A stretch of DNA of 64,000 nucleotides from Sphingomonas sp. (GTDB lineage: Bacteria > Pseudomonadota > Alphaproteobacteria > Sphingomonadales > Sphingomonadaceae): positions 1 through 64,000 of the forward strand of contig JAKFUZ010000003.1 in the NCBI GenBank assembly GCA_021732445.1, written 5' to 3'. The first letter of the stretch is position 1. Every line of letters begins with the position of its first letter. Below, in pieces: positions 51,570 through 64,000 of this stretch. Below the pieces are notes generated by a model. That model saw only the letters and a program-made list of their open reading frames with translations. It did not search any database and was not told the origin of the DNA. The position numbers and the translations under genes are program-made.

Positions 51570-51646
51570 CGGGTCGGTCGCACAGGGCAACCCGCCGCCG
51601 GCAGTCGGGCAGGGGCCAAAAGTGCATCATGCCCGCAGCGGCCGGC

Positions 51647-51662
51647 ATTTTAACGTTAAAAT
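51647..51662. promoter_or_regulatory. 16-bp perfect palindrome, LacI-type operator
   Basis: ATTTTAACGTTAAAAT is a perfect 16-bp palindrome with central CG, the hallmark of LacI-family operators. It sits 63 bases upstream of the permease ATG and about 118 bases from the GH2 start. Its right half includes a -10-like TAAAAT (51657-51662) for the permease, so binding would block that promoter. It may act on either or both divergent genes. Confidence 0.6.
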
Positions 51663-51724
51663 ACTTGTCCCGCGGCCTTGGCGACAGAGCCATAGCGATG
51701 CAGACTGAGCGCAAGGGGAGACCA

Positions 51725-53104
51725 ATGACAGGCGCACCAATCGGCACCGGGGAACACGGCCTCCACAAATCGCTCAGCAAAGCGCAGATAACCATGATGG
51801 GCCTTGGTGGCGCAATTGGCACCGGGCTGTTTCTGGGGAGTGGCATCGCAATTGGCTATGCTGGTCCCGCCGTCATCCTCAGCTATCTCATCGCCGGGTT
51901 CATTGCGGTCGTCATGGTGTTCAGCCTGTCGGAAATGGCGGTCGCACACCCAGCCGCCGGATCCTTTGGCATTTATGCCGAGACCTATATCAACCCCTGG
52001 GCCGGTTTCATGGTGCGGCTTACCTATTGGATGTCGCAGGTCATCGCCGTTGGCGGAGAGGCGGTCGCGGCGGGCGTATACATGACCTATTGGTTCCCCG
52101 ACGTGCCGGTGTGGCTATGGTCGCTCAGTTTTGCGCTGCTGTTGCTCTACATCAATTCGCGCTCAGTGGGTAATTTCGGCACGGTGGAATATTGGTTCGC
52201 GCTCATCAAGGTGGTGGCGATTCTAGTGTTCATCGTGCTTGGCGCGTCGACGATATTGGGTATCGGCCAACCGGCAACCGGCACCGCGAACCTGACCGGC
52301 CTGCCCGGCGGCTTCATGCCGCATGGCTGGTGGGGTGTGTGGATGGGCGTCATCATCGGCATTTTCTCGTTCACCGGCATTGAGCTTATCGCGGTAACAT
52401 CGGGCGAGACGGCGGACCCCAAAACCGCGATTCCGGCCGCGCTGCGGACAATGGCTGTCCGCCTCATCCTGTTCTACGTACTCGCGCTGGCGATTGTCGT
52501 CAGCTATGTGCCGTGGACGGAGACCGGCGCCAAGGTCATCACGCAAAGCCCTTTTGTAAAGATTTTTGCGCATAGCGGCATTCGCCAGGCGGCGGGCATC
52601 ATGAATTTCGTGGTCGTGAGCGCAGCGTTGTCGAGCATGAACACCAATATCTATCTGTCGTCGCGAATGTTGTTCTCGCTGTCACGCGGCGGCTATGCGC
52701 CGGCTTTTCTCGGGCGACTGAGCAGCAACGGCACGCCGGTTGGCGCGATCTTGCTGTCGGGCGCGAGCATTTTGCTGGCGGCGAGCGTTTCGGCGCTCAC
52801 GCCGCTTGCGTATAATTACCTGTTCGGCATTGCGCTGTTTGGCAGCATTTCGGTGTGGATCACGATTTTGGTGAGCCATATCGGGTTCCGCCGGCACCAT
52901 GATGGGGCGCCGCTGCCCGTGAAGATGCCGCTATTCCCCTATCTTCAGCTAAGCGGGCTGGCGCTGCTCATCGCCATTCTCGTCACCATGGGGCTCGACA
53001 CCGATTTCTGGAACATCGCGTGGATCGTTGGCGTGCCGTGGATGCTGCTGGTGACGCTTGCCTATTTTCTATGGGCCCGAAAGCCGCAGGTGGCGGCGGC
53101 GTAG
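51725..53104 (+). CDS. Amino acid permease (AAT/APC superfamily)
   Basis: 459 residues from MTGAPIGTGEHGLHKSLSK, chosen because AAGGGGAGACCA directly precedes the ATG. Twelve membrane segments. The first carries the APC substrate loop GLGGAIGTGLFLGSGIAI, and the segment FSFTGIELIAVTSGETADPKTAIPAA is the AAT signature. SSMNTNIYLSSRMLFSLSRGGYAP lies in segment 8. Relatives (CycA, GabP, AroP, ProY) import amino acids with protons. Specificity is not readable. It is divergent from the galactanase operon and shares its control region. Confidence 0.88.
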   Translation: MTGAPIGTGEHGLHKSLSKAQITMMGLGGAIGTGLFLGSGIAIGYAGPAVILSYLIAGFIAVVMVFSLSEMAVAHPAAGSFGIYAETYINPWAGFMVRLTYWMSQVIAVGGEAVAAGVYMTYWFPDVPVWLWSLSFALLLLYINSRSVGNFGTVEYWFALIKVVAILVFIVLGASTILGIGQPATGTANLTGLPGGFMPHGWWGVWMGVIIGIFSFTGIELIAVTSGETADPKTAIPAALRTMAVRLILFYVLALAIVVSYVPWTETGAKVITQSPFVKIFAHSGIRQAAGIMNFVVVSAALSSMNTNIYLSSRMLFSLSRGGYAPAFLGRLSSNGTPVGAILLSGASILLAASVSALTPLAYNYLFGIALFGSISVWITILVSHIGFRRHHDGAPLPVKMPLFPYLQLSGLALLIAILVTMGLDTDFWNIAWIVGVPWMLLVTLAYFLWARKPQVAAA

Positions 53105-53107
53105 CGC

Positions 53108-53539
53108 TCAGCCGGCAACCGACTGCACGGTCTGCACCACGCACCCTTCCAGCCGGGCGCGCCAGTCTTGCGGCCAGGCGCAGGCCAGCGTCGTCCGCGT
53201 GTCGATGGGTACTTGTACCAGCACCGCCGTAAATCGCACTTCGAGCCCCACAGACGCTGCGACGCGCAGCGTAACCGACCGCGCCGACACCGCCTGCACC
53301 GCAACTGCAATGTCGAGATGCTCGCCAAGCCGGCACGCGCGCGCAAAATCGGTGGATAGCGAGCGCGTCGGCAACCCGCAGTGGTGAAGCCGGTGCATCG
53401 TTTGCCGGTCCACGCCCAGCGCCGCCAGCGTCCAGTCCTCAATCGCTGCATCGACCAGCGCGAGCAGCCGCGGATAATAGGCGATGCCTGCAAAATCGCA
53501 GTCGCCAAAGCGAACGGGCAGGGTGGCGGAGAAAATCAT
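53108..53539 (-). CDS. Acyl-CoA thioesterase (4-hydroxybenzoyl-CoA thioesterase-like hotdog fold)
   Basis: 143 residues from the ATG at 53539 (MIFSATLPVRFGDCDFAGIAYYP). RFGDCDFAGIAYYPRLL is the hotdog active-site helix of the 4-hydroxybenzoyl-CoA thioesterase family, with Asp in GDCD as the catalytic acid. The later part (HLDIAVAVQAVSARSVTLRVAAS) completes the sheet. It hydrolyses aromatic or acyl thioesters. It closes a four-gene minus-strand operon with an enoyl-CoA hydratase, a MarR regulator and an SDR, so it may release CoA from dead-end intermediates of that pathway. Confidence 0.82.
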   Translation of the reverse strand: MIFSATLPVRFGDCDFAGIAYYPRLLALVDAAIEDWTLAALGVDRQTMHRLHHCGLPTRSLSTDFARACRLGEHLDIAVAVQAVSARSVTLRVAASVGLEVRFTAVLVQVPIDTRTTLACAWPQDWRARLEGCVVQTVQSVAG

Positions 53540-53600
53540 CGCGCGGCGATAGAGGAGGCCGGGCCGATCATCAACCGTGCAAGCGGCGGCCGATGCCCTG

Positions 53601-54419
53601 TCAGTCGCCCTTGAACACCGGCGAGCGCTTTTCCGCAAAAGCCTGATAGGCGCGGGCAAAATCCTGCGTCTGCATGCATATCGCCTGTGCCTGCGCTTCC
53701 ATCTCGATGGCAACGTCCAGGCTGACCGCCCACTCGGTGTTGAGCTGCGTCTTGGTAATGCCGTGCGCAAAGGTCGGCCCGGCCGCCAGGCTCAGCGCCA
53801 GATTCTGTGCCTCGGCGAGCAGCAGGTCCGCGGCCACCAACCGGTTGTGAAACCCCCAGCGCTCGCCCTCGTCAGCGCTCATCATCCGGCCAGTGAACAA
53901 CAGTTCGCTGGCGCGCCCCTGCCCGATGATTCGCGGCAGCATGGCGCAGGCCCCCATATCGCAGCCCGCAAGACCCACCCGCGCAAACAAAAACGCCGTC
54001 CGCGTGGCCGGCGTTGCAAAGCGGATGTCGGATGCCATGGCGAGAATGGCCCCGGCGCCTACGCAAACACCGTCCAGCGCCGCCACAATCGGCTGCGGAC
54101 AACCCCGCATGGCCTTGACGAGATCGCCGGTCATTCGGGTGAAAGCGAGCAATTCTGGCATGGCCATTTTGGTGAGCGGGCCGATAATCTCGAACACATC
54201 GCCGCCCGAACTGAAATTGCCACCCGCCCCCGCCAGCACCACGGCCTTCACGTCGGGCGCATAGGCCAGCGCGCGGAACAGATCGCGCAACTCGGCATAG
54301 CTTGCAAAGGTCAGCGGGTTTTTCATCGCCGGGCGGTCCAGCGTGATCGTCGCGACGCCATCGGCAAAGGCCCAGCGGCAATGAGCAGGGGCATAAGTGG
54401 CGGGGTCGATCATCATCAT
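53601..54419 (-). CDS. Enoyl-CoA hydratase/isomerase family protein
   Basis: 272 residues. Crotonase motifs are [18 protein letters not shown], the oxyanion segment [16 protein letters not shown] and [27 protein letters not shown], then [24 protein letters not shown], where Cys-Asp replaces the usual Glu pair, so it may not be a simple hydratase. The C-terminal [34 protein letters not shown] is typical. Close homologues are found in aromatic degradation clusters. Overlaps the MarR gene upstream by four bases. Confidence 0.87.
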
Positions 54420-54910
54420 TGCGGATCCTTGGGCATTGCATGCGCCAGCGAGACCTTGAGGCCGCCGAGCAGCTCAAACAACGCCTTGCGCTCGCTGGGT
54501 GAAAGGCCGCAGAGCATGTCGTCGATCCAGCCGTGATGCGCATCGGCCAGCGCCTCAAAATAGGCAATGCCCGCCTCGTTGAGGCGGGCAACGCTCGCGC
54601 GCCGGTCCTCAGGAGATGTCACCAGCGTTGCATAGCCGTCGTGCACGAGCTTTTGCACCAGCCCGGTCACATTGCCGTTTGACACCAGCAGCGAGCGCGA
54701 CAGCGCGCTCATCGTCATCCCCTCAGGATGGCGGGCTAGCGCCGCCAGTACATCAAAACGCGGCAGGGTGGTGTCGAACTGGTCGGCAAACCCGCGGCGC
54801 ACCTGCTTTTCGATGACCATCGTGCAACTCAGCAGCCGCAACCAGAGCCGCACGCTGGCGGACCGCCCGAGCTTGCCGTCATGCTTTTCGCGTATCGCCA
54901 CTGTCGCCAT
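54416..54910 (-). CDS. MarR-family transcriptional regulator
   Basis: 164 residues from the ATG at 54910, which overlaps the stop of the SDR gene by one base. The winged helix is at about residues 48-120: [60 protein letters not shown]- and C-terminal helices form the dimer. MarR proteins in catabolic operons are usually repressors released by a pathway aromatic acid or its CoA ester. This one lies inside the SDR-hydratase-thioesterase operon, so it probably controls its own transcript. Confidence 0.9.
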
Positions 54911-55689
54911 CAACCTGCCTCTCCGCCCGCCACCATGATCGCCTGCCCGGTTATCGACCGGCTTGAGGCGAGGCAAAGCCAATACACGGTTTCGGCGACT
55001 TCGGTGGGTTCAATCAAGCGCTGCTGCGGATTGAACGCGGCAAGCCGTGCCCGCGCGGATTCCGGCGTGCGGCCAGTCATGGCGACGATCCGCGCGACGG
55101 CTGCGTCGACAAGCGGTGTATCGGTAAAGCCCGGGCAGACGGCGTTGACGGTCACCTCGGTCGCCGCCAGTTCGGCCGCTAGCGCGCGGGTAAACCCGAT
55201 TGCCCCGTGTTTGGCGGCGCAATAGGGCACGGTATAGGCATAACCCTTCACCCCGGCCGTGCTGGCAATGGTGATGACGCGGCCCTGCACGGCCGCCCGC
55301 AAATCAGGCAGCACGGCCTGTGTCATGACGAACAGCGCATCGAGATTGACCGCCATCATCCGCCGCCAGCCGGCCATGTCGAGCGCGTCGAACGGCCCGC
55401 TTTCGGCGGTGCCGGCACAGTTGACGAGGATGTGGACCGGCCCTGCGGCGGCGCGCGCGGCGGCCAGCATCCGCTGTACCTGCGCGGCATCGCAAACGTC
55501 GCCGGCAAGCGGGATTGCCCCGTCGAGCAGCGCGGCGACCTGCTCCAGTGCAGCTGCACGCCGGCCGATCAGCGTAACGCGCGCGCCGGCCGCGTTCAGC
55601 CGCTGCGCAATCGCGGCGCCAATTCCGCTGCCCGCGCCTGTGACCACGGCATGGCGGCCGGAAAAAGGCGCCGGGTTCAGCCCATCCAT
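54910..55689 (-). CDS. Short-chain dehydrogenase/reductase, 3-hydroxyacyl-CoA dehydrogenase type
   Basis: 259 residues from MDGLNPAPFSGRHAVVTG; the track start 16 codons earlier is rejected. Motifs are VVTGAGSGIGAAIAQRL, LIGRRAAAL, VNCAGTAESG, VITIASTAGVKGYAYTVPYCAAKHGAIGFTRALAAEL (YxxxK) and VNAVCPGFTDTPLV, ending with GQAIMVAGGEAG. The form resembles FabG-like and 3-hydroxyacyl-CoA dehydrogenase SDRs found in aromatic ring-cleavage-by-CoA pathways. First gene of the minus-strand operon, divergent from the fused monooxygenase with 118 bases between the starts. Confidence 0.87.
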   Translation of the reverse strand: MDGLNPAPFSGRHAVVTGAGSGIGAAIAQRLNAAGARVTLIGRRAAALEQVAALLDGAIPLAGDVCDAAQVQRMLAAARAAAGPVHILVNCAGTAESGPFDALDMAGWRRMMAVNLDALFVMTQAVLPDLRAAVQGRVITIASTAGVKGYAYTVPYCAAKHGAIGFTRALAAELAATEVTVNAVCPGFTDTPLVDAAVARIVAMTGRTPESARARLAAFNPQQRLIEPTEVAETVYWLCLASSRSITGQAIMVAGGEAG

Positions 55690-55748
55690 CCTGTTACCCC
55701 GATAATCGCGCAGGCCCTGCCCGCAAGCCCGGGGCAAACGCTTTAAGT

Positions 55749-55777
55749 TTGAAACAATACGGCCGATACGCTAGGTT
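55749..55777 (+). promoter_or_regulatory. Candidate promoter of the fused monooxygenase gene
   Basis: TTGAAA (55749-55754), a 17-base spacer and TAGGTT (55772-55777) form a weak sigma-70-type promoter about 30 bases before the ATG. No strong palindrome for MarR binding was seen here apart from AGTTTGAAACAA-like sequence around the -35. Confidence 0.35.
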
Positions 55778-55807
55778 GCAAGGCGATTCAGCAACGCGGG
55801 GCGGGGC

Positions 55808-58156
55808 ATGCGCATCACCATCATAGGCGGCGGACCCGGCGGTTTCTACCTCGCCATTCTGGCCAAAAAGGCGCGGCCCGACTGGGATATCGAGATTTTC
55901 GAGCAGAACCAGCCCGACGACACTTTTGGTTTTGGTGTCGTCTTCTCCGACGAAACGCTCGGCGAATTTTTGAGCCGCGACCCTCAGTCCTATGACGCCA
56001 TCGCCAGCGCCTTTGCCTATTGGGACGATGTTCGTGTGCGGTACAAGGGCAACGACATCCGTTGCGGCGGCAACGGCTTTGCCGGCTGCGCGCGGCTGAC
56101 GCTGCTGCACATCCTGCAGGCGCGCGCCGCAGCGCTTGGCGTTGTGACGCATTTTGGCGCAGCGATTGAGCCGTCCAGCCTCGACACGCGGTTTGCCGGT
56201 TCCGATGTGATTGTCGCAGCGGACGGGGTGAACAGCCGCATCCGCGACCATTTTGCCGACAAGTTCGAGCCGACCATAACCGCCACGCGCAACAAATTCA
56301 CCTGGATGGGATCGACCCGGCCGCTTGGCGATTTCACCTATTTCTTCCGCGAAACACCGCATGGCATCATCACCGCCCATGCCTATCAATATCAGGCGGA
56401 CCGCTCGACCTGGGTGATCGAGACGACGCCTGAATGCTGGGCGTGGCACGGCTTCGACACGATGGACGAGGCAGATACCGCGCGCACGCTCGAACGCATT
56501 TTTGCACAAGAGCTTGAGGGGCATCGGCTGCTCACCAACCGCTCAGTGTGGCGCAACTTTCCCAAGGTTTCCTGCGCGCGCTGGTCGCACGGCAAGATCG
56601 TGCTGCTGGGAGACGCGATGGCGACCGCGCATTTCTCGATCGGATCGGGCACAAAGCTTGCGATGGAAAGCGCGATTTCGCTTGCCGATGCGCTGATCGC
56701 GCATGGGGAGCGCGACCTGTCCGCCGCCTTTGCCGCCTATCGCGCCGACCGTGCCACCGCCATCGAGATAACCCAGCACAATGCCGAGGTGTCGCTCGCC
56801 TGGTTTGAGCATGTCGCGCGCGCCTGGGACATGCCGCCGGTGCAGTTTGCGATGCTGGTGATGTCGCGCGCAAAATCCATCACCTGGGATAATCTAGAGC
56901 TGCGCGATGAGCATTTTCTGCGCGCGGTCGAGGATGATTTCTACCGCAATTATGCGGGCGAAACCGGGCATGATGTGGCGGCTGCCCGGCCCACGCCCAT
57001 GTTCACGCCGCTGCACCTGCGCGCGCTCGCCATTCCCAACCGCGTGGTGGTCGCCCCGATGGCGCAATATCTCGCGCAAGACGGGATTCCGGGCGACTGG
57101 CATTTCATGCATTACGGCACCCGCGCGGTTGGCGGCGCCGGGCTTGTTTATGTGGAGATGACCTGCGTTTCGCCCGAGGCGCGCATTACGCTTGGCTGCC
57201 CCGGCCTGTGGAACGACGCGCAGGAGGCGGCCTGGGCACGGATCGTCGATTTCGCGCACCACAATAGTGAGGCAAAAATGGCGGTGCAGCTCGGCCATGC
57301 CGGGCGCAAGGCCTCCACTCAATTGGGCTGGGAACTGGCTGACCACCCGATTGCCGACAGCCATCGCAACTGGCCGCTGGTGTCCGCCTCGGCACTGCCG
57401 TGGCTGCCTGGCGTCAGCGCCGTGCCCGCAGCGCTCGACCCGGCGGACATGGAGGCGGTGATCGCTCAATTCACGACAGCGACGCTGCGCGCGCACCGGG
57501 CGGGGTTCGACCTGCTGGAGCTGCACTGCGCGCACGGATATCTGCTCGCAAGCTTCCTGTCGCCGCTCACCAACCGGCGCACCGATGGCTATGGCGGCGG
57601 CATTGATAACCGGCTGCGCTTTCCGCTTGCGGTGTTTGCCGCGATGCGCGCGGTGTGGCCTGCGGACAAACCGATGTCGGTGCGCCTGTCCGGCACCGAC
57701 TGGCACGAGGGCGGACTGAGCGAGGCGGACCTGCTGGCCACGGTGCGCGCCTTCAAGGCCGCGGGCTGCGATCTCATCAGCATGTCGAGCGGCCAGACCG
57801 TGCCCGATCAAACCCCGGTTTACGGCCGCATGTATCAGGTGCCATTCTGCGAGACCGTGAAAAACATCGTAGGCATCAAAACCATGTGCGCAGGGGCAAT
57901 AACCGAGCCGGGCCAGGTGAACACCATCATCGCATGCCGCCGGGCCGATCTGGTGGCGCTGGGGCGGCCGCATTTGACCGATCCGTTCTTCGCGATGCGG
58001 GCCGCCGCGCATTATGGCACGCGCGCCGTCGCGGTCCCCAAGCCCTATCTGCCGGGCGCGGCACAATTGGCGCGCGAGAGCGAAAAGGCGCGCGACAAGC
58101 AGCGCGACCTGCTGCGTCAGGCCAATGCTGCGCGCCGCGCAGGGCCGCGCCGATGA
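55808..58156 (+). CDS. Fused flavin monooxygenase / old-yellow-enzyme reductase: 2-aminobenzoyl-CoA (anthraniloyl-CoA) or salicylyl-CoA hydroxylase type
   Basis: 782 residues. Residues 1-385 are an aromatic flavin hydroxylase: MRITIIGGGPGGFYLAILAK (FAD loop), FGFGVVFSDETLGEF, DVIVAADGVNSRIRDHF, and VLLGDAMATAHFSIGSGTKLAMES. Residues 395-760 are an old-yellow-enzyme barrel: MFTPLHLRALAIPNRVVVAPMAQY, AVQLGHAGRKAS, ELHCAHGYLLASFLSPLTNRRTDGYGG and RRADLVALGRPHLTDPFFA. This fusion is the architecture of 2-aminobenzoyl-CoA monooxygenase/reductase of aerobic anthranilate degradation, and of enzymes annotated as salicylyl-CoA 5-hydroxylase. It hydroxylates and then dearomatises the ring of the CoA ester. 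The last codon overlaps the RidA gene. Confidence 0.88.
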   Translation: MRITIIGGGPGGFYLAILAKKARPDWDIEIFEQNQPDDTFGFGVVFSDETLGEFLSRDPQSYDAIASAFAYWDDVRVRYKGNDIRCGGNGFAGCARLTLLHILQARAAALGVVTHFGAAIEPSSLDTRFAGSDVIVAADGVNSRIRDHFADKFEPTITATRNKFTWMGSTRPLGDFTYFFRETPHGIITAHAYQYQADRSTWVIETTPECWAWHGFDTMDEADTARTLERIFAQELEGHRLLTNRSVWRNFPKVSCARWSHGKIVLLGDAMATAHFSIGSGTKLAMESAISLADALIAHGERDLSAAFAAYRADRATAIEITQHNAEVSLAWFEHVARAWDMPPVQFAMLVMSRAKSITWDNLELRDEHFLRAVEDDFYRNYAGETGHDVAAARPTPMFTPLHLRALAIPNRVVVAPMAQYLAQDGIPGDWHFMHYGTRAVGGAGLVYVEMTCVSPEARITLGCPGLWNDAQEAAWARIVDFAHHNSEAKMAVQLGHAGRKASTQLGWELADHPIADSHRNWPLVSASALPWLPGVSAVPAALDPADMEAVIAQFTTATLRAHRAGFDLLELHCAHGYLLASFLSPLTNRRTDGYGGGIDNRLRFPLAVFAAMRAVWPADKPMSVRLSGTDWHEGGLSEADLLATVRAFKAAGCDLISMSSGQTVPDQTPVYGRMYQVPFCETVKNIVGIKTMCAGAITEPGQVNTIIACRRADLVALGRPHLTDPFFAMRAAAHYGTRAVAVPKPYLPGAAQLARESEKARDKQRDLLRQANAARRAGPRR

Positions 58157-58551
58157 GCGCGCGCGTGCTGCTTCCACCCGGCTGGCCACAGCCGCGGGGC
58201 TATGCCAATGGCATGGCTGCGCGCGGGCGGCTGGTCGTGACGGCCGGTGTCGTTGGCTGGGATGAACATGGGCAGTTCGCCTATGGCATGACCGCACAAT
58301 GCGCGCGGATTTTCGCCAATATCGCTGCCATTCTGGCAGAAGCCGGCGCGGCACCGGCCGATGTTGTCCGCATGACATGGTATGTGACTGACCGCGCCGC
58401 CTATCTTGCCGAGGGAAAGGCCATTGGCGCGGCTTATCGCGCGGTGTTCGGTGCGCATTACCCCGCGATGGCGGTGATTGAGGTGTCGGCGCTGATCGAG
58501 GACGCGGCCGTGGTCGAAATCGAGGCGATGGCGGTGGTTGCCGAAACCTGA
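58153..58551 (+). CDS. RidA (YjgF/YER057c) family imine/enamine deaminase-like protein
   Basis: 132 residues from the ATG that overlaps the monooxygenase stop (ATGA); the long track ORF upstream is a shadow. RidA-fold features are PQPRGYANGMAARGRLVVTAGVVGWDEHG, CARIFANIAAILAEAGAAPADVVRMTWYVTDRAAY and YRAVFGAHYPAMAVIEVSALIEDAAVVEIEAMAV. The classical RidA Arg in the R-N-P-x-R region is not at the usual place; YPAMAVIEVSAL replaces RPARSxVEV, so activity may differ from housekeeping RidA. The tight coupling suggests it works on the product of the monooxygenase. Confidence 0.85.
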   Translation: MSARVLLPPGWPQPRGYANGMAARGRLVVTAGVVGWDEHGQFAYGMTAQCARIFANIAAILAEAGAAPADVVRMTWYVTDRAAYLAEGKAIGAAYRAVFGAHYPAMAVIEVSALIEDAAVVEIEAMAVVAET

Positions 58552-58603
58552 GGCGCTTTTGGGGCAGGTGAGCAGCGTTGCCGCCGGAAAAAAGGGCGCC
58601 TGG

Positions 58604-59089
58604 TCAGCCAGGTGTTTCGCCGAAATTGTCAAACAGGCGCCTGAGCAACGCGTTGAGAGCGACGACTTCGTCGGCGGAGAAATCGCTGAACCCCTGGTTG
58701 AAGATCCGGCTCGCCTGCCGGTGGACGCTGACGGCCGCGCGGCGCCCTGCCGCCGTCAGCGACACTTCGGTCACGCGCCCATCGGCTTCGCGCGGGCGGG
58801 TGGTCACAAGCCCGCTATCCGCCAGGCGCCGCACGATCCGCGTCATCGTTGACAGGCGAATAACGGCATGGTCGCACAATTCGGTGATGCTTGCCGGCTC
58901 ATGCTCCGACAATATGGCCAGCACCCGCCACCGCGGCACATCCATGCCGATGGGCTTGAGCACGCGGTCCATATCGAGCCGGTAGCGACCCGACACCCGC
59001 GCGAGCCAATATAGCGGCGATCGCGCGAGCAGAAAATCGCGGTGAGCAGGGTCGGCGAGCGCGAGCGCGTCAGTTTTGTGAACAGCCAT
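58604..59089 (-). CDS. MarR-family transcriptional regulator (second of the cluster)
   Basis: 161 residues. The winged helix lies at about residues 55-125: WRVLAILSEHEPASITELCDHAVIRLSTMTRIVRRLADSGLVTTRPREADGRVTEVSL. The N-terminal SPLYWLARVSGRYRLDMDRVLKPIGMDVPRW is the first dimer helix. It is divergent from the cyclase-oxidoreductase operon with 98 bases between the starts, and that gap contains inverted repeats. It is convergent with the RidA gene. It most likely represses the cyclase operon and itself. Confidence 0.9.
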   Translation of the reverse strand: MAVHKTDALALADPAHRDFLLARSPLYWLARVSGRYRLDMDRVLKPIGMDVPRWRVLAILSEHEPASITELCDHAVIRLSTMTRIVRRLADSGLVTTRPREADGRVTEVSLTAAGRRAAVSVHRQASRIFNQGFSDFSADEVVALNALLRRLFDNFGETPG

Positions 59090-59114
59090 TGCCGGCTGTT
59101 TATACCCAGCAAGC

Positions 59115-59155
59115 GACAGAGTGTCATCACTTGACTATTCACGTATCTCTGTCAA
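59115..59155. promoter_or_regulatory. Inverted repeats in the MarR/cyclase divergent promoter
   Basis: GACAGAG (59115-59121) and CTCTGTC (59147-59153) form a seven-pair inverted repeat. Within it, TTGAC (59131-59135) and GTCAA (59151-59155) form another with a 15-base spacer. TTGACT on the plus strand and TTGACA on the minus strand (59155-59150) are good -35 candidates for the two divergent genes, so a protein bound here could control both. Binding by the adjacent MarR protein is inferred. Confidence 0.5.
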
Positions 59156-59187
59156 CTTTTCGCGCGTCACAATCGAGGAGCGGCGCG

Positions 59188-59979
59188 ATGATTCCGGGAG
59201 CGCAGACCATATTGGGCGATCTGGCGATGGCGCTGGCGACAGGCGCCGTTCGGGTCGTTGACCTGACTCAGCCGCTCGAGCCGAAGACCCCGGTGCTGCA
59301 ACTGCCGCCCCAATTTGTGCAAAACCCGCCCTTCGAGATCGAAACATTGTCGGAATATGACGAACGCGGCCCGGCATGGTACTGGAACTGGTTCAAATGC
59401 GGCGAGCATACCGGCACGCATTTTGATGCGCCGATCCACTTCATCACCGGCAAGGATTTCGACAATAACGCAACCGACACCATTCCGGTTGAGCGGTTCA
59501 TTGGCCCGGCCTGTGTGCTCGATGCGTCGGTTGAGGCGGCCGCCGACCCCGATTTTCTGGTCACGATCGAGTTTGTCGAGCGCTGGGAAGCGCAGCATGG
59601 CCGCATTCCGCCGGGCGCCTGGGTGCTGTTCCGCACTGACTGGTCGAAGCGCACCGACCCGGCCGAGTTCCTGAATTTTCACGATGATGGGGCCCATACA
59701 CCCGGCTGGCACGCCTCGACCATTCCGTTTCTCGCCGAACAACGTGATGTGCGCGGGGTTGGCGTTGAGACGGTTGGCACCGATGCCGGGCAAGCATTTG
59801 CGTTTGACCCCGCATTCCCCTGCCATGTGCTGATGCACGGCGCCAACAAATTTGGGCTCGCCAGCCTTGTAAACCTCGATCAGTTGCCACCGACGGGCGC
59901 CATTGTGATTGCGCCGCCACTCAAGATCGTGCGCGGCTCGGGCAGCCCGTTGCGCGTGCTGGCGCTGGTCCCTGCATGA
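59188..59979 (+). CDS. Cyclase-family metal hydrolase, isatin hydrolase/arylformamidase-like
   Basis: 263 residues from the ATG at 59188, eight bases after GAGGAG. The metal-binding motif HTGTHFDAPIHF (residues 74-85) is the HxGTHxDxPxH signature of the cyclase family (kynurenine formamidase, isatin hydrolase). LDASVEAAADPDFLVTIEFVERWEAQHG, WVLFRTDWSKR and GVETVGTDAGQA complete the fold. It is longer than KynB (about 210) and near the size of isatin hydrolase. It would hydrolyse a cyclic or N-formyl amide such as isatin, oxindole-type lactam or formylkynurenine. It opens an operon with the 2-oxoacid oxidoreductase. Confidence 0.85.
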   Translation: MIPGAQTILGDLAMALATGAVRVVDLTQPLEPKTPVLQLPPQFVQNPPFEIETLSEYDERGPAWYWNWFKCGEHTGTHFDAPIHFITGKDFDNNATDTIPVERFIGPACVLDASVEAAADPDFLVTIEFVERWEAQHGRIPPGAWVLFRTDWSKRTDPAEFLNFHDDGAHTPGWHASTIPFLAEQRDVRGVGVETVGTDAGQAFAFDPAFPCHVLMHGANKFGLASLVNLDQLPPTGAIVIAPPLKIVRGSGSPLRVLALVPA

Positions 59980-59994
59980 CGGTAGCGTCCGCTC

Positions 59995-62118
59995 ATGGCT
60001 GAGCGATCCTTCGCCAAAGAGGTCGAGCGCCTGCGCCTGGGTGAAGGTGACATCTTCCACGGCGAGGGCATTCTGGCCGTCACCAAGGCCCTGCTCCAAT
60101 CGGGCGTGGCCTATGTCGGTGGCTATCAGGGCGCGCCGATCAGCCATTTGATGGATGTGTTTGCCGACGCCAACCCGCTGCTGATGGAACTTGGCGTCCA
60201 TTTCGAACAATCCGCGTCTGAAGCATCGGCGGCGGCGATGCTTGCGGCGTCCGTCAATTATCCGCTGCGCGGCGCGGTAACGTGGAAATCGACGGTTGGC
60301 ACCAATGTTGCGTCAGACGCGCTCGCCAATGTCGCGAGCGGCGGGGTGACAGGGGGAGCGCTCATCATCGTCGGTGAAGATTATGGTGAGGGTTCCTCGA
60401 TCATGCAGGAGCGCAGCCACGCCTTTGCGATGAAATCACAGATCTGGCTGCTCGATCCCCGCCCGCATCTGCCGACCATCGTCGCGATGGTGGAGCACGG
60501 TTTTGCGCTGTCTGAAGCGTCGAACACCCCGGTCATGCTTGAGTTGCGCATCCGCGCCTGCCACCTGCACGGCGCTTTTGCCGCGCGCGACAATCGCCGC
60601 TCGCCGATGTCGCTGCGCGAGGCAATGGAAGCGCCGGTGCGCGACCCCGACCGGATCGTGCTGCCGCCCGCCAATTTCCTGCACGAGCGTGAAAAGGTGG
60701 AACAGCGCTTGCCCGCCGCGATTGCCTATATCGCAAACGCGCGCCTAAACGAGACGCTGCCGGGAGCGAAATACGCGGACATGGGCATCATCGTGCAGGG
60801 TGGGCTGTTCAACAGCCTGGCGCGCGCGCTGGAGCTGGCCGGGCTGGCAGACGGCTATGGCGCCTTCGACATCCCGCTTCATGTGCTGAACGTTACCTAC
60901 CCGCTGGTGGATGCCGAGATTGCGGCATTCTGCTCGGGCAAACATGCGGTGCTGGTGGTCGAGGAAGGCCAGCCGGAATATCTTGAGCAGGCAATTGCGC
61001 TGCTTCTTCGCCAGGCCGGGCTCGACACCGCGCTGGTGGGAAAAGCGGTGCTGCCGCGCGCCGGCGAATATACCGGGCAGCTAATTGGCGAAGGGGTCGC
61101 CGCCTTCCTCGCCCGGCATGCCGGCTTCGCTCTGCCCGTCAGGCCCGCGCCGCCGCCGCTGGCGATGGCCGATGTGCCGCAGCGGCCGGCGGGTTTTTGC
61201 ACCGGCTGCCCGGAGCGCCCGGTGTTCACCGCGATGAAGTTATTGCAGCGGGAAATGGGGCCTTTCCATGTTTCGTGCGACATTGGCTGCCACCTGTTTT
61301 CCATCTTGCCGCCCTTTGACATTGGCAACACCACCATGGGCTATGGCCTTGGCTGGGCCGGTGCGTCGGCTTTCAACATTGAAGGCGCCACGCGCCGCAC
61401 GATCAGCGTGATGGGTGACGGCGGCTTCTGGCATAACGGCCTTACGAGCGGCGTCGGCAACGCGGTGTTCAACAAAAGCGACAATGTGCTGCTCATCGTC
61501 GACAATGATTATTCGGCCGCGACCGGCGGGCAGGATCTGCTCTCGTCACGCGCCGGCAATGCCGTGCGCAGTACCGGTCACGAGATTGAGCGCGCGGTGC
61601 GCGGCGTGGGCGTCAATTGGGTGCAAACGGTGCGCACCTATGACCTGAAACGCATGATGGCGACGCTGAAAGAGGCGATGACCACCCCCCACCGGGGCCC
61701 AAAGGTAATCATCGCGCAGGGCGAGTGCATGCTGAACCGCCAGCGCCGTGAAAAGCCGCTGTTCGCAAAGGCAGTGAAGGACGGCCGACGGATGGTCCGC
61801 CAGCGCTTTGGCGTGGATGAAGATGTGTGTACCGGCGACCATAGCTGCATCCGCCTGTCCGGCTGCCCGTCGCTCACCGTAAAGCCCAATCCCGATCCGC
61901 TGCGCCAAGACCCGGTTGCCGCTGTCAACAATGATTGCGTGGGCTGCGGTGTGTGCGGTGAAATCGCCCATGCCGCGGTGCTGTGCCCCAGTTTTTTCCG
62001 GGTGGACATCCTCCACAATGCCGGCGCCGTCGAACGCTGGTGGCACCGCGTGTCGCTGTGGCTGATCGGCCGGTTGCAGACGAGTGCTGAACGCCGGCGG
62101 CTTACCCGCGCGGCATGA
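59995..62118 (+). CDS. Indolepyruvate-type 2-oxoacid oxidoreductase, TPP and ferredoxin-like subunit
   Basis: 707 residues. The N-terminal half (YVGGYQGAPISHLMDVF, VHFEQSASEASAAAMLAASV, GALIIVGEDYGEGSSIMQERSHAFAMKS) is the pyrimidine-binding part. The C-terminal half has FCTGCPERPVFTAM, CDIGCHLFSILPPF and the TPP site VMGDGGFWHNGLTSGVGNAVFN with NDYSAATGG. The last 100 residues carry a two-cluster [4Fe-4S] ferredoxin-like domain (CTGDHSCIRLSGCPS and NDCVGCGVCGEIAHAA). The family oxidatively decarboxylates aryl pyruvates to arylacetyl-CoA. A two-gene form in an aerobic host is known in proteobacteria. Overlaps the partner subunit gene (ATGA). Confidence 0.87.
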   Translation: MAERSFAKEVERLRLGEGDIFHGEGILAVTKALLQSGVAYVGGYQGAPISHLMDVFADANPLLMELGVHFEQSASEASAAAMLAASVNYPLRGAVTWKSTVGTNVASDALANVASGGVTGGALIIVGEDYGEGSSIMQERSHAFAMKSQIWLLDPRPHLPTIVAMVEHGFALSEASNTPVMLELRIRACHLHGAFAARDNRRSPMSLREAMEAPVRDPDRIVLPPANFLHEREKVEQRLPAAIAYIANARLNETLPGAKYADMGIIVQGGLFNSLARALELAGLADGYGAFDIPLHVLNVTYPLVDAEIAAFCSGKHAVLVVEEGQPEYLEQAIALLLRQAGLDTALVGKAVLPRAGEYTGQLIGEGVAAFLARHAGFALPVRPAPPPLAMADVPQRPAGFCTGCPERPVFTAMKLLQREMGPFHVSCDIGCHLFSILPPFDIGNTTMGYGLGWAGASAFNIEGATRRTISVMGDGGFWHNGLTSGVGNAVFNKSDNVLLIVDNDYSAATGGQDLLSSRAGNAVRSTGHEIERAVRGVGVNWVQTVRTYDLKRMMATLKEAMTTPHRGPKVIIAQGECMLNRQRREKPLFAKAVKDGRRMVRQRFGVDEDVCTGDHSCIRLSGCPSLTVKPNPDPLRQDPVAAVNNDCVGCGVCGEIAHAAVLCPSFFRVDILHNAGAVERWWHRVSLWLIGRLQTSAERRRLTRAA

Positions 62119-63632
62119 TCCGGCCGATCCGCCTGTCGATCAACGCGCTGGGCGGGCAGGGCGGCGGCGTGCTGGCCGACTGGATTGTCGCGCTCGGCGA
62201 GGGGGCGGGCTGGACTGTGCAGGCAACCTCGGTGCCAGGCGTTGCGCAGCGCACCGGCGCCACCGTTTATTATCTCGAACTGGCGCCGCCCGCCCCAGCG
62301 GCGCGCACCCCGATTCTGGCGCTGATGCCAGTGCCGGGCGATGTCGATGTGGTGATTGCGGCTGAACTGATGGAGGCTGGCCGTGCCATCGCGCGCGGGC
62401 TGGTCACGCCCGACCGGACCACGCTGATTGCGTCAAGCCACCGCATTTTCGCCATTTCGGAAAAGTCGGCGATGGGCAATGGCATTACCAGCTCGGCAGC
62501 CGTGCTGGAGGCGTGCCGGACCAGTGCCCGAAAGCTCGTGCTCGCCGATTTGCAGCACCTGGCAGACGCGCATGGCAGCGTCATCAGCGCAGCGTTGTTC
62601 GGCGCCCTGGCAGGCTCGGCCGCGCTTCCCTTCGGCCGGGCGGCGTTTGAAGCGGCGATTGCCGGTGGCGGGGTTGGCGTTGCTCCAAGCCTGCGCGCCT
62701 TTGCGGCCGCCTTTGATGTGGCGGACCGGCCAAGCGCCCAGGCGCCCGAGCCCGGGATGACATCGCCGGCGACCGTGCGCGCGCCGCCCGCCACGCTGCC
62801 GGCGTTGCGCGCCCGCGTTGCCCGGCTGCCGGCGGCCGTTCAGGCAACGGCGATGCTCGGCATCGAGCGGCTCACCGACTATCAGGATGCCGCTTATGCC
62901 AGCGCCTATCTTGACCGGCTGGCCGCAATCGCCAGCGCAGAGGGGCAACTCGGGGCGGACGCGCAATCACCGCTCGCCCATGCCGCCGCGCGGCACCTGG
63001 CCTTGTGGATGGCGTATGAAGATGTCATCCGCGTGGCTGATCTCAAGACGCGCGGCGCGCGCCATGCACGCGTCCGTCAGGAGGTGCAGGCAGGCGCAGC
63101 ACCACTGCTCTCCGTGCGGGAATTCATGCACCCCCGCTTTGAGGAATTGTGCGACCTGCTGCCCGCAGCGCTCGGCCGGCGACTGATCGGCTCGGCCCGC
63201 GCGCGCCGCTGGGCGGCGCCTGTGCTTGAGCGCGACCGGATTATCACGACAACGCGGCTCGGCGGCTTTTTGCTGCTGTTCGGTCTTGCCCGGCTGCGGC
63301 GCTTCCGGCGCGGCACCTATCGGTTCGCCGTGGAGCAGGCGCGGATCGATGCCTGGCTGGAAACCGCCATCAACGCCGCGCGGCGCGATGGCATGCTGGG
63401 CGTTGAAGTCATCGCCTGCCAGCGCCTCGTCAAAGGCTATGGCGACACGCACGCGCGTGGCTGGCGCAGCTTTGCGGCCATCATGAACTGGCTGGCGGCC
63501 AATGAGCAGCGGGCGGATGCGGGACATGCGGTGGCCATGTTGCGCGCGGCCGCGCTCAGCGACGATGATGGCCGGGCGCTGGCCAAGGCGTTCGCGGTGC
63601 TGGACGGTGTCACGCACGACAAGGCCGCCTGA
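62115..63632 (+). CDS. Indolepyruvate-type oxidoreductase, second subunit with C-terminal DUF6537-like domain
   Basis: 505 residues overlapping the first subunit gene by four bases. Residues 1-200 are the gamma-type domain of 2-oxoacid oxidoreductases (LSINALGGQGGGVLADWIVALGE, TSVPGVAQRTGATVYYLEL, DVVIAAELMEAGRAIARGLV). Residues about 235-500 form a helical domain that accompanies this subunit in aerobic proteobacteria (LTDYQDAAYASAYLDRLAAI, YEDVIRVADLKTRGARHARVR, ARGWRSFAAIMNWLA). Together the two genes encode a complete indolepyruvate or phenylpyruvate:acceptor oxidoreductase. It ends the plus-strand operon. Confidence 0.85.
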   Translation: MIRPIRLSINALGGQGGGVLADWIVALGEGAGWTVQATSVPGVAQRTGATVYYLELAPPAPAARTPILALMPVPGDVDVVIAAELMEAGRAIARGLVTPDRTTLIASSHRIFAISEKSAMGNGITSSAAVLEACRTSARKLVLADLQHLADAHGSVISAALFGALAGSAALPFGRAAFEAAIAGGGVGVAPSLRAFAAAFDVADRPSAQAPEPGMTSPATVRAPPATLPALRARVARLPAAVQATAMLGIERLTDYQDAAYASAYLDRLAAIASAEGQLGADAQSPLAHAAARHLALWMAYEDVIRVADLKTRGARHARVRQEVQAGAAPLLSVREFMHPRFEELCDLLPAALGRRLIGSARARRWAAPVLERDRIITTTRLGGFLLLFGLARLRRFRRGTYRFAVEQARIDAWLETAINAARRDGMLGVEVIACQRLVKGYGDTHARGWRSFAAIMNWLAANEQRADAGHAVAMLRAAALSDDDGRALAKAFAVLDGVTHDKAA

Positions 63633-63659
63633 ACAGGTCGCCAGCGCGCTGCCGCGCGC

Positions 63660-64000
63660 TCAATAGTTGATGGCGGGCGACATTGCTGGGTAGAAAACGC
63701 CGATCAGCATCATCCCGTCGGCGCTCGTGCACTCGACCGAATGCGATTGCTTGCGCGGCAGGAATATCGTGTCGCCGGGCCCGATCAGCGCCTTGGTGGT
63801 GTCTGTCCACATGACGCCCTCGCCTGACAGGACGGTCAGCGTTTCCTCATAGAGGTGGCGGTGATGCGCGGCGCGCGACCTTGGGATGTGGCCGATGAAC
63901 TGCGTGACTTCTGTCCCTTGTGTCTCGCCATCGACCAGCACCTGATAATAGCGGTCCGCCATTGCCGCGCGCTTGTCAGGATCAACCGGCACGACGCGGG
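63660..64000 (-). CDS. Cupin-domain protein (N-terminal part outside window)
   Basis: At least 113 codons are visible and the frame stays open to the window edge (RVVPVDPDKRAAMADRYYQVL), so the GTG at 63992 is probably not the true start. The visible part is one complete cupin: GHIPRSRAAHHRHLYEETLTVLSGEGVMW (metal-binding His/Glu motif) and GPGDTIFLPRKQSHSVECTSADG (second motif with His). The phrasing suggests the second half of a bicupin. Cupins in aromatic clusters are often dioxygenases or isomerases; here only a metal site is certain. Convergent with the oxidoreductase operon. Confidence 0.75.
   Translation of the reverse strand, partial: RVVPVDPDKRAAMADRYYQVLVDGETQGTEVTQFIGHIPRSRAAHHRHLYEETLTVLSGEGVMWTDTTKALIGPGDTIFLPRKQSHSVECTSADGMMLIGVFYPAMSPAINY

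Follow-up and report, generated by a model that had tools for sequence, protein, structure and literature searches.

The window analysed here is a stretch of 64,000 nucleotides from a Sphingomonas sp. genome listed as 100% complete; it covers positions 1-64000 of the 133,631 bases of contig C7. At 53108-64000 it holds a gene cluster in which a predicted isatin hydrolase and a two-subunit 2-oxoacid oxidoreductase (IorAB) lie next to a fused 2-aminobenzoyl-coenzyme A (CoA) monooxygenase/reductase (ABMR). The genes named there in an earlier sequence-only reading were all recovered with domain and family profile searches (Table 1), and by strand they form five units, not the four of that reading: a short-chain dehydrogenase/reductase (SDR), MarR, crotonase and thioesterase unit on the minus strand, ABMR and RidA on the plus strand, a second MarR gene on the minus strand, the hydrolase, IorA and IorB on the plus strand, and a cupin gene on the minus strand. 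The hydrolase and iorA genes are separated by 15 bp, iorA and iorB overlap by 4 bp (ATGA), and the ABMR and RidA genes overlap by ATGA at 58153-58156. These units are found again in Alpha-, Beta- and Gammaproteobacteria, in one actinomycete and in a metagenome-assembled genome (MAG) of an acidobacterium, and the cluster is therefore more than a chance assembly. The reading favoured here, with a probability of about 0.7, is that it encodes the half of an indole-type degradation that leads from isatin to central metabolism, with IorAB turning isatinate into anthraniloyl-CoA for ABMR.

Table 1. Features of the cluster and its surroundings, in window numbering continued past 64000
Feature	Position	Strand	Evidence or remark
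Amino acid permease, cluster membership uncertain	51629-53104	+	PF00324 330 bits; adjacent only
4HBT acyl-CoA thioesterase, lower pathway	53108-53539	-	PF13279 39.7 bits; start ATG 53539
Crotonase/enoyl-CoA hydratase family	53601-54419	-	NF006107 463.8 bits, over cut-off 330
MarR regulator a, lower-pathway unit	54416-54910	-	PF12802 51.8 bits; start ATG 54910 or 54820
SDR dehydrogenase	54910-55689	-	PF00106 189.5 bits; start ATG 55689
ABMR, fused FAD monooxygenase/FMN reductase (2-aminobenzoyl-CoA monooxygenase/reductase type)	55808-58156	+	PF01494 + PF00724
RidA family enamine/imine deaminase	58153-58551	+	PF01042 72.9 bits
MarR regulator b, divergent from isatin hydrolase operon	58604-59089	-	PF01047 49.2 bits
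Predicted isatin hydrolase (IadI homologue), PF04199 cyclase	59188-59979	+	phmmer to solved enzymes; conserved residues
IorA, thiamine pyrophosphate (TPP)- and Fe-S-containing alpha subunit of 2-oxoacid oxidoreductase (IadA homologue)	59995-62118	+	PF02775
IorB, beta subunit, POR domain + DUF6537 (IadB homologue)	62115-63632	+	PF01558, PF20169; PRK08312 659 bits, over cut-off 348
CDGSH-CDGSH-cupin protein, C-terminal part in window	63660-64000 (full gene 63660-64715)	-	PF09360, PF07883
TonB receptor	64735-67119	-	
Class V pyridoxal phosphate (PLP) enzyme, kynureninase-like C-terminus (AT5)	67339-68511	+	
Second PF04199 cyclase, apparently exported	68447-69463	+	signal-like N-terminus
PrnB-family haem protein	about 69463-70632	+	

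The cyclase encoded upstream of iorA matched four solved isatin hydrolases over nearly its full length in phmmer searches, with 356.6 bits to 5nmp and 302-318 bits to 4j0n, 5nna and 5nnb. Against kynurenine formamidases it stayed below 30 bits, and the KynB family TIGR03035 gave 38 bits against a cut-off of 223. With residue roles taken from PMC6117287, the manganese ligands His/His/Asp (HxxxHxD) and the catalytic His79, His207 and Asp193 (LaIHA numbering) are kept, the alignment showing HTGTHFDAPIH and TDAGQ...PCH. In the aromatic pocket Trp59 and Trp61 are kept, Trp80 and Tyr204 are both replaced by Phe and Gln219 by Ala. The enzyme, described as isatin-hydrolase-like in the sequence-only reading, is by family membership and catalytic residues a putative isatin hydrolase, and its product would be isatinate (2-aminophenylglyoxylate), a 2-oxoacid.

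Among 401 genomes of the order, IorA was found in 66 and a strong isatin hydrolase match in 63. Both were present in 62 genomes, IorA only in four and the hydrolase only in one (Fisher p = 8e-67, not corrected for phylogeny). The hydrolase gene is immediately upstream of iorA on the same strand, with a gap of 9-290 bp, in 52 of the 62, and IorA is present in 23 genera of the order. MarR b is a recurrent neighbour of the hydrolase in sphingomonads. A wider sample of 114 IorA loci covered several phyla; an isatin hydrolase was found in 67 of the 89 loci with flanks of at least 7.5 kb, and the link is also seen in Betaproteobacteria, Rhizobiales, a Nocardioides and an acidobacterial MAG. The window IorA falls in a group of 24 sequences that are all hydrolase-linked (support 91). 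That the distribution of IorA tracks that of isatin hydrolase points to isatinate as the substrate, and from this genomic context we infer both isatinate as the substrate of IorAB and a CoA ester as the product.

The GDG motif at 474-476 of IorA and the C-terminal cysteines 612, 618, 624, 648, 651, 654 and 664 are invariant in 10 homologues. Because of the TPP motif, the cysteine clusters and the POR domain in the beta subunit, it is reasonable to regard IorAB as a TPP-dependent oxidative 2-oxoacid decarboxylase. AlphaFold gave a poor model for IorA, with a predicted local distance difference test (pLDDT) score of 60 and fold matches to TPP enzymes at template modelling (TM) scores of only 0.23-0.27, and these matches were left unused for substrate inference. 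The label of indolepyruvate oxidoreductase given earlier is not supported: IorA scores 287 bits, below half of the cut-off of 651, with the alpha subunit equivalog of indolepyruvate ferredoxin oxidoreductase (TIGR03336), and it is distributed in step with isatin hydrolase. A true indolepyruvate (arylpyruvate) oxidoreductase, by which tryptophan would pass through indolepyruvate to indoleacetyl-CoA with the isatin hydrolase acting later in the same route, is very unlikely. It has in its favour the nearest-family annotation, the coverage of most of IorA by TIGR03336 and the adjacent amino acid permease gene, which possibly provides uptake for the pathway; besides the low score, the near one-to-one co-occurrence and adjacency of IorA and isatin hydrolase speak against it. 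From indoleacetyl-CoA onwards, a ring oxygenase and loss of the side chain would still be required, and the types known from the iad auxin degradation locus were not found in the source genome (IadD best match 31% over 107 residues only, IadG no match). Indoleacetate as the local substrate, proposed in the sequence-only reading, is for the same reason not upheld.

ABMR carries the flavin adenine dinucleotide (FAD) monooxygenase and the flavin mononucleotide (FMN) reductase (old-yellow-enzyme) domains in one protein, as in 2-aminobenzoyl-CoA monooxygenase/reductase and in agreement with the earlier assignment; its expected substrate is a CoA ester. RidA recurs beside ABMR in relatives and the SDR recurs together with it. 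In the lower-pathway clusters of relatives MarR a is found again, the 4HBT thioesterase is present in many, and crotonase homologues are 62-84% identical. The search for this neighbourhood in relatives, suggested in the sequence-only reading, showed that homologous clusters do co-occur: ABMR is present in 60 of the 66 IorA genomes and lies within 20 kb of IorA in 24 genomes. The possibility that the ABMR unit serves another aryl-CoA, salicylyl-CoA or similar, in a separate pathway adjoining the isatin operon by chance is made quite unlikely by these counts, by the RidA gene overlap, which fits an amino substrate, and by a loss of ligase that follows linkage to IorAB (below). What it would explain is the NCBIfam name of salicylyl-CoA 5-hydroxylase, the lack of IorA in 49 of the 109 ABMR genomes of the order, and the presence beside ABMR, in several relatives, of an FAA hydrolase and a gentisate-dioxygenase-like cupin.

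In nine loci (L070, L076, L078, L085, L099, L101, L186, L242, L275) ABMR and/or IorAB is found with a gentisate-dioxygenase-like cupin and an FAA-hydrolase-like protein, often also with a nitrilase-like protein. These variants suggest a 5-hydroxyanthranilate or gentisate-type branch from anthraniloyl-CoA. In g13 genomes (L209, L218-L224, L279-L284) ABMR homologues of 46-49% identity stand alone with most lower-pathway genes absent, and part of the fused flavoenzyme family thus probably has another role.

In described anthraniloyl-CoA systems the thioester is supplied by an anthranilate-CoA ligase (PMC3534580). The cluster does extend past 64000, as had been expected, and a TonB receptor gene comes after the cupin gene, but of the CoA ligase and the ring-hydroxylating dioxygenase that were also looked for none is among the genes downstream (64000-80000 read). 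Nine AMP-binding proteins of the source genome were scanned and none was of the benzoate-CoA type (best TIGR02262 score 170 bits against a cut-off of 375); the best identity of source genome proteins to the benzoate-type group of cluster ligases was below 33%. In loci of at least 13 kb, an AMP-binding ligase is present in 22 of 24 ABMR clusters of IorA-less genomes versus 6 of 20 linked to IorAB (p = 3e-5), where linked means ABMR within 20 kb of IorAB and the minimum of neighbouring core genes was one for linked and three for IorA-less clusters. In IorA genomes with an unlinked ABMR cluster the ligase is kept in 12 of 16. Most cluster ligases form one group with a mutual identity of 50-75%, and three of the six scanned matched the benzoate-CoA ligase family (356-430 bits); one odd cluster ligase (L229) is 38% identical to a source-genome protein. 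Read most simply, these data have IorAB taking the place of the ligase in the step that forms the CoA ester, which would explain why no separate ligase is needed.

Alternatively, IorAB might decarboxylate isatinate without CoA capture to 2-aminobenzaldehyde or free anthranilate, and a ligase that escaped recognition would then activate the product ahead of ABMR. In some genomes IorAB and a ligase do occur side by side, and a 2025 preprint on the iad locus reports accumulation of C8H7NO3 (the formula of isatinate) and of C7H7NO solely with iadC-K2 in a locus-deletion background (PMC12633357). The C7H7NO and the free anthranilic acid of iad strains agree with this alternative, but they come from strains that are read as lacking iadAB. 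From its name, the gene order and the numbering, the iadC-K2 construct would lack iadA and iadB, a point that is not discussed in PMC12633357, and the build-up of C8H7NO3 is then as expected from loss of an isatinate-consuming enzyme. The POR-domain beta subunit and the conserved Fe-S cysteines are moreover a mark of CoA-dependent oxidative enzymes, and no benzoate/anthranilate-type ligase was found in the source genome, so that decarboxylation without CoA capture seems unlikely.

Under the preferred reading, with isatinate converted directly to anthraniloyl-CoA, we infer the substrate of ABMR, the order of the lower steps and the regulation as follows. Isatin would be opened to isatinate by the hydrolase, and isatinate and CoA would be converted by IorAB to anthraniloyl-CoA and CO2 in an oxidative decarboxylation without ATP or ligase. 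ABMR would hydroxylate and reduce anthraniloyl-CoA to the dearomatised 2-amino-5-oxocyclohexenecarbonyl-CoA, and RidA may aid enamine/imine hydrolysis and deamination. The crotonase, the SDR (a probable 3-hydroxyacyl-CoA or ring-alcohol dehydrogenase) and the thioesterase would take the alicyclic CoA ester through ring opening and beta-oxidation, with an acyl-CoA dehydrogenase supplied from elsewhere. MarR b would control the isatinate operon and MarR a the lower unit. The earlier proposal of an aerobic, CoA-dependent route, in which an indole-type compound reaches beta-oxidation by way of a thioester at the anthranilate level, is supported by the content of the cluster and by its relatives.

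Six observations weigh against this scheme. Ligase and IorAB are both kept in one genus, g71 (G021, G088, G049, G032, G061, G052), which accounts for all six linked ligase cases. IorA loci without isatin hydrolase exist, for example on a Ruegeria plasmid (L142) and in the clade L200-L205, so the substrates of the wider IorA family probably include other 2-oxoacids. ABMR is slightly under the cut-off of PRK08255, the family named salicylyl-CoA 5-hydroxylase (1008 against 1078 bits, residues 1-766). The acyl-CoA dehydrogenase that is common in the lower clusters of relatives is absent from the window cluster and must come from elsewhere in the genome. The iad strains without iadAB, a genotype deduced as above, still form anthranilic acid (PMC12633357), which indicates that isatinate has a second fate or that there is another path to anthranilate. 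Nothing in the source genome was recognised as a source of isatin.

The g71 loci (L189, L190, L251-L257) contain ligase, IorAB and ABMR, and most of them also a kynureninase-like enzyme, as if anthranilate and isatinate both fed the same lower pathway. Two phytoene-desaturase-like FAD oxidoreductases, possibly another way to make isatin, flank the hydrolase in L100, L116, L123, L124, L125, L128, L130, L132, L134 and L202, which are mostly rhizobial hydrolase-IorAB loci. The protein with two CDGSH motifs and a cupin recurs in isatin/ABMR clusters (L076, L087, L088, L251-L257), with homologues 39-46% identical in several. In L144 (Hydrogenophaga plasmid, NZ_CP044974.1) the IorA homologue matches in two pieces, with an insertion relative to the window IorA; its neighbours, on conjugative plasmids, include an IS66 element, genes for a Rieske dioxygenase and a glutamine-synthetase-like gene, and no IorB is annotated beside it.

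Next to the cluster the genes for AT5, the second cyclase and PrnB (67339-70632) stand in operon-like order, and the genes beyond PrnB are apparently unrelated. Homologues of AT5 with 44-49% identity accompany isatin hydrolase/IorA or ABMR clusters of other taxa, in L076, L093, L127, L251-L253 and L255-L257, and a class V PLP gene adjoins PrnB also in G204 and G218 (L167, L171). The PrnB family is placed within the haem tryptophan dioxygenase superfamily, and some members are reported to form oxindoles (PMC11904535). PrnB is present in seven genomes of the order, and four of these also have IorA (p = 0.016); apart from the source genome, the two are on different contigs. PrnB adjoins IorA in L063 and L066 and is near IorA in L088. 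There is only weak support for PrnB as a constant member of the isatin cluster. Tryptophan 2,3-dioxygenase was not found in the source genome. Tryptophan may still be the ultimate source of isatin. In one possible but unlikely route, PrnB would oxidise tryptophan or a derivative to dioxindolyl-alanine, AT5 would release isatin and alanine by a retro-aldol reaction, and the hydrolase, IorAB and ABMR would finish the route. The chemistry is speculation, and isatin or related indoles might just as well be taken up from outside. If true, the route would form a full tryptophan pathway running beside the kynurenine pathway, without tryptophan dioxygenase, formamidase or CoA ligase.

If IorAB does form anthraniloyl-CoA, isatin-type intermediates enter the 2-aminobenzoyl-CoA pathway without ATP spent on a ligase, and isatin, not free anthranilate, is the branch point into the route. 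Many bacterial annotations of indolepyruvate ferredoxin oxidoreductase would then be misnamed. IadA and IadB, hallmark genes of auxin-degrading bacteria, which have been named as iad markers without an assigned reaction (PMC9613470), gain a testable function.

The cluster resembles the iad locus of Variovorax, Achromobacter and Bradyrhizobium in IorA/IorB (IadA/IadB), in the hydrolase (IadI) and in MarR control, and isatin, isatinate and anthranilate are iad intermediates (PMC9613470, PMC12633357). The window proteins are 63-66% (IorA) and 60-62% (isatin hydrolase) identical to those of the Variovorax/Achromobacter loci. There the order is IorA, IorB, Rieske alpha, Rieske beta, AMP ligase, thiolase, OB-fold/SDR and isatin hydrolase, which corresponds to iadA, B, D, E, F, G, H and I of the auxin locus (PMC9613470, PMC12633357); loci of this type were seen in L103, L105, L106, L108, L110, L122 and L138-L140. 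In the window cluster IadCDE, IadF, IadG and IadH are missing and the ABMR lower pathway is attached instead. As the source genome also showed no clear counterpart of the IadD Rieske oxygenase subunit or the IadG thiolase, the locus was not classed as iad.

The isatin hydrolases of Labrenzia aggregata and Ralstonia solanacearum (4j0n, 5nna, 5nnb, 5nmp) share the family and the catalytic residues. The Ala in place of Gln219 matches the B-type enzyme, the residues at Trp80 and Tyr204 differ from the known enzymes, and the window hydrolase is distinguished by its operon with a 2-oxoacid oxidoreductase. The aerobic 2-aminobenzoate route of Aromatoleum evansii and Arthrobacter Rue61a likewise has a fused monooxygenase/reductase acting on anthraniloyl-CoA, followed by beta-oxidation-type enzymes, but begins with the anthranilate-CoA ligase (PMC3534580), whereas in the window IorAB is proposed to form the thioester. 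A published step from isatinate to anthraniloyl-CoA was not found in the openly readable literature, and an earlier description is possible. The CoA-benzoylating phenylglyoxylate oxidoreductase PadEFGHI (cited in PMC5109826) is a precedent with the chemistry proposed here, arylglyoxylate + CoA to aroyl-CoA + CO2. It is a multi-subunit enzyme of anaerobic phenylalanine metabolism, whereas IorAB has two fused-type subunits and occurs in aerobes, and the two are compared by chemistry alone. EdcC of oestrogen degradation in Novosphingobium tardaugens, compared by description and not by sequence, is a second precedent, an enzyme of the indolepyruvate oxidoreductase (IOR) family that serves aerobic ring catabolism by decarboxylating a 2-oxoacid and activating it with CoA; its substrate is a meta-cleavage product of oestrone (PMC7793797). 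Set beside these systems, the cluster joins two known modules in a new combination that has no ligase.

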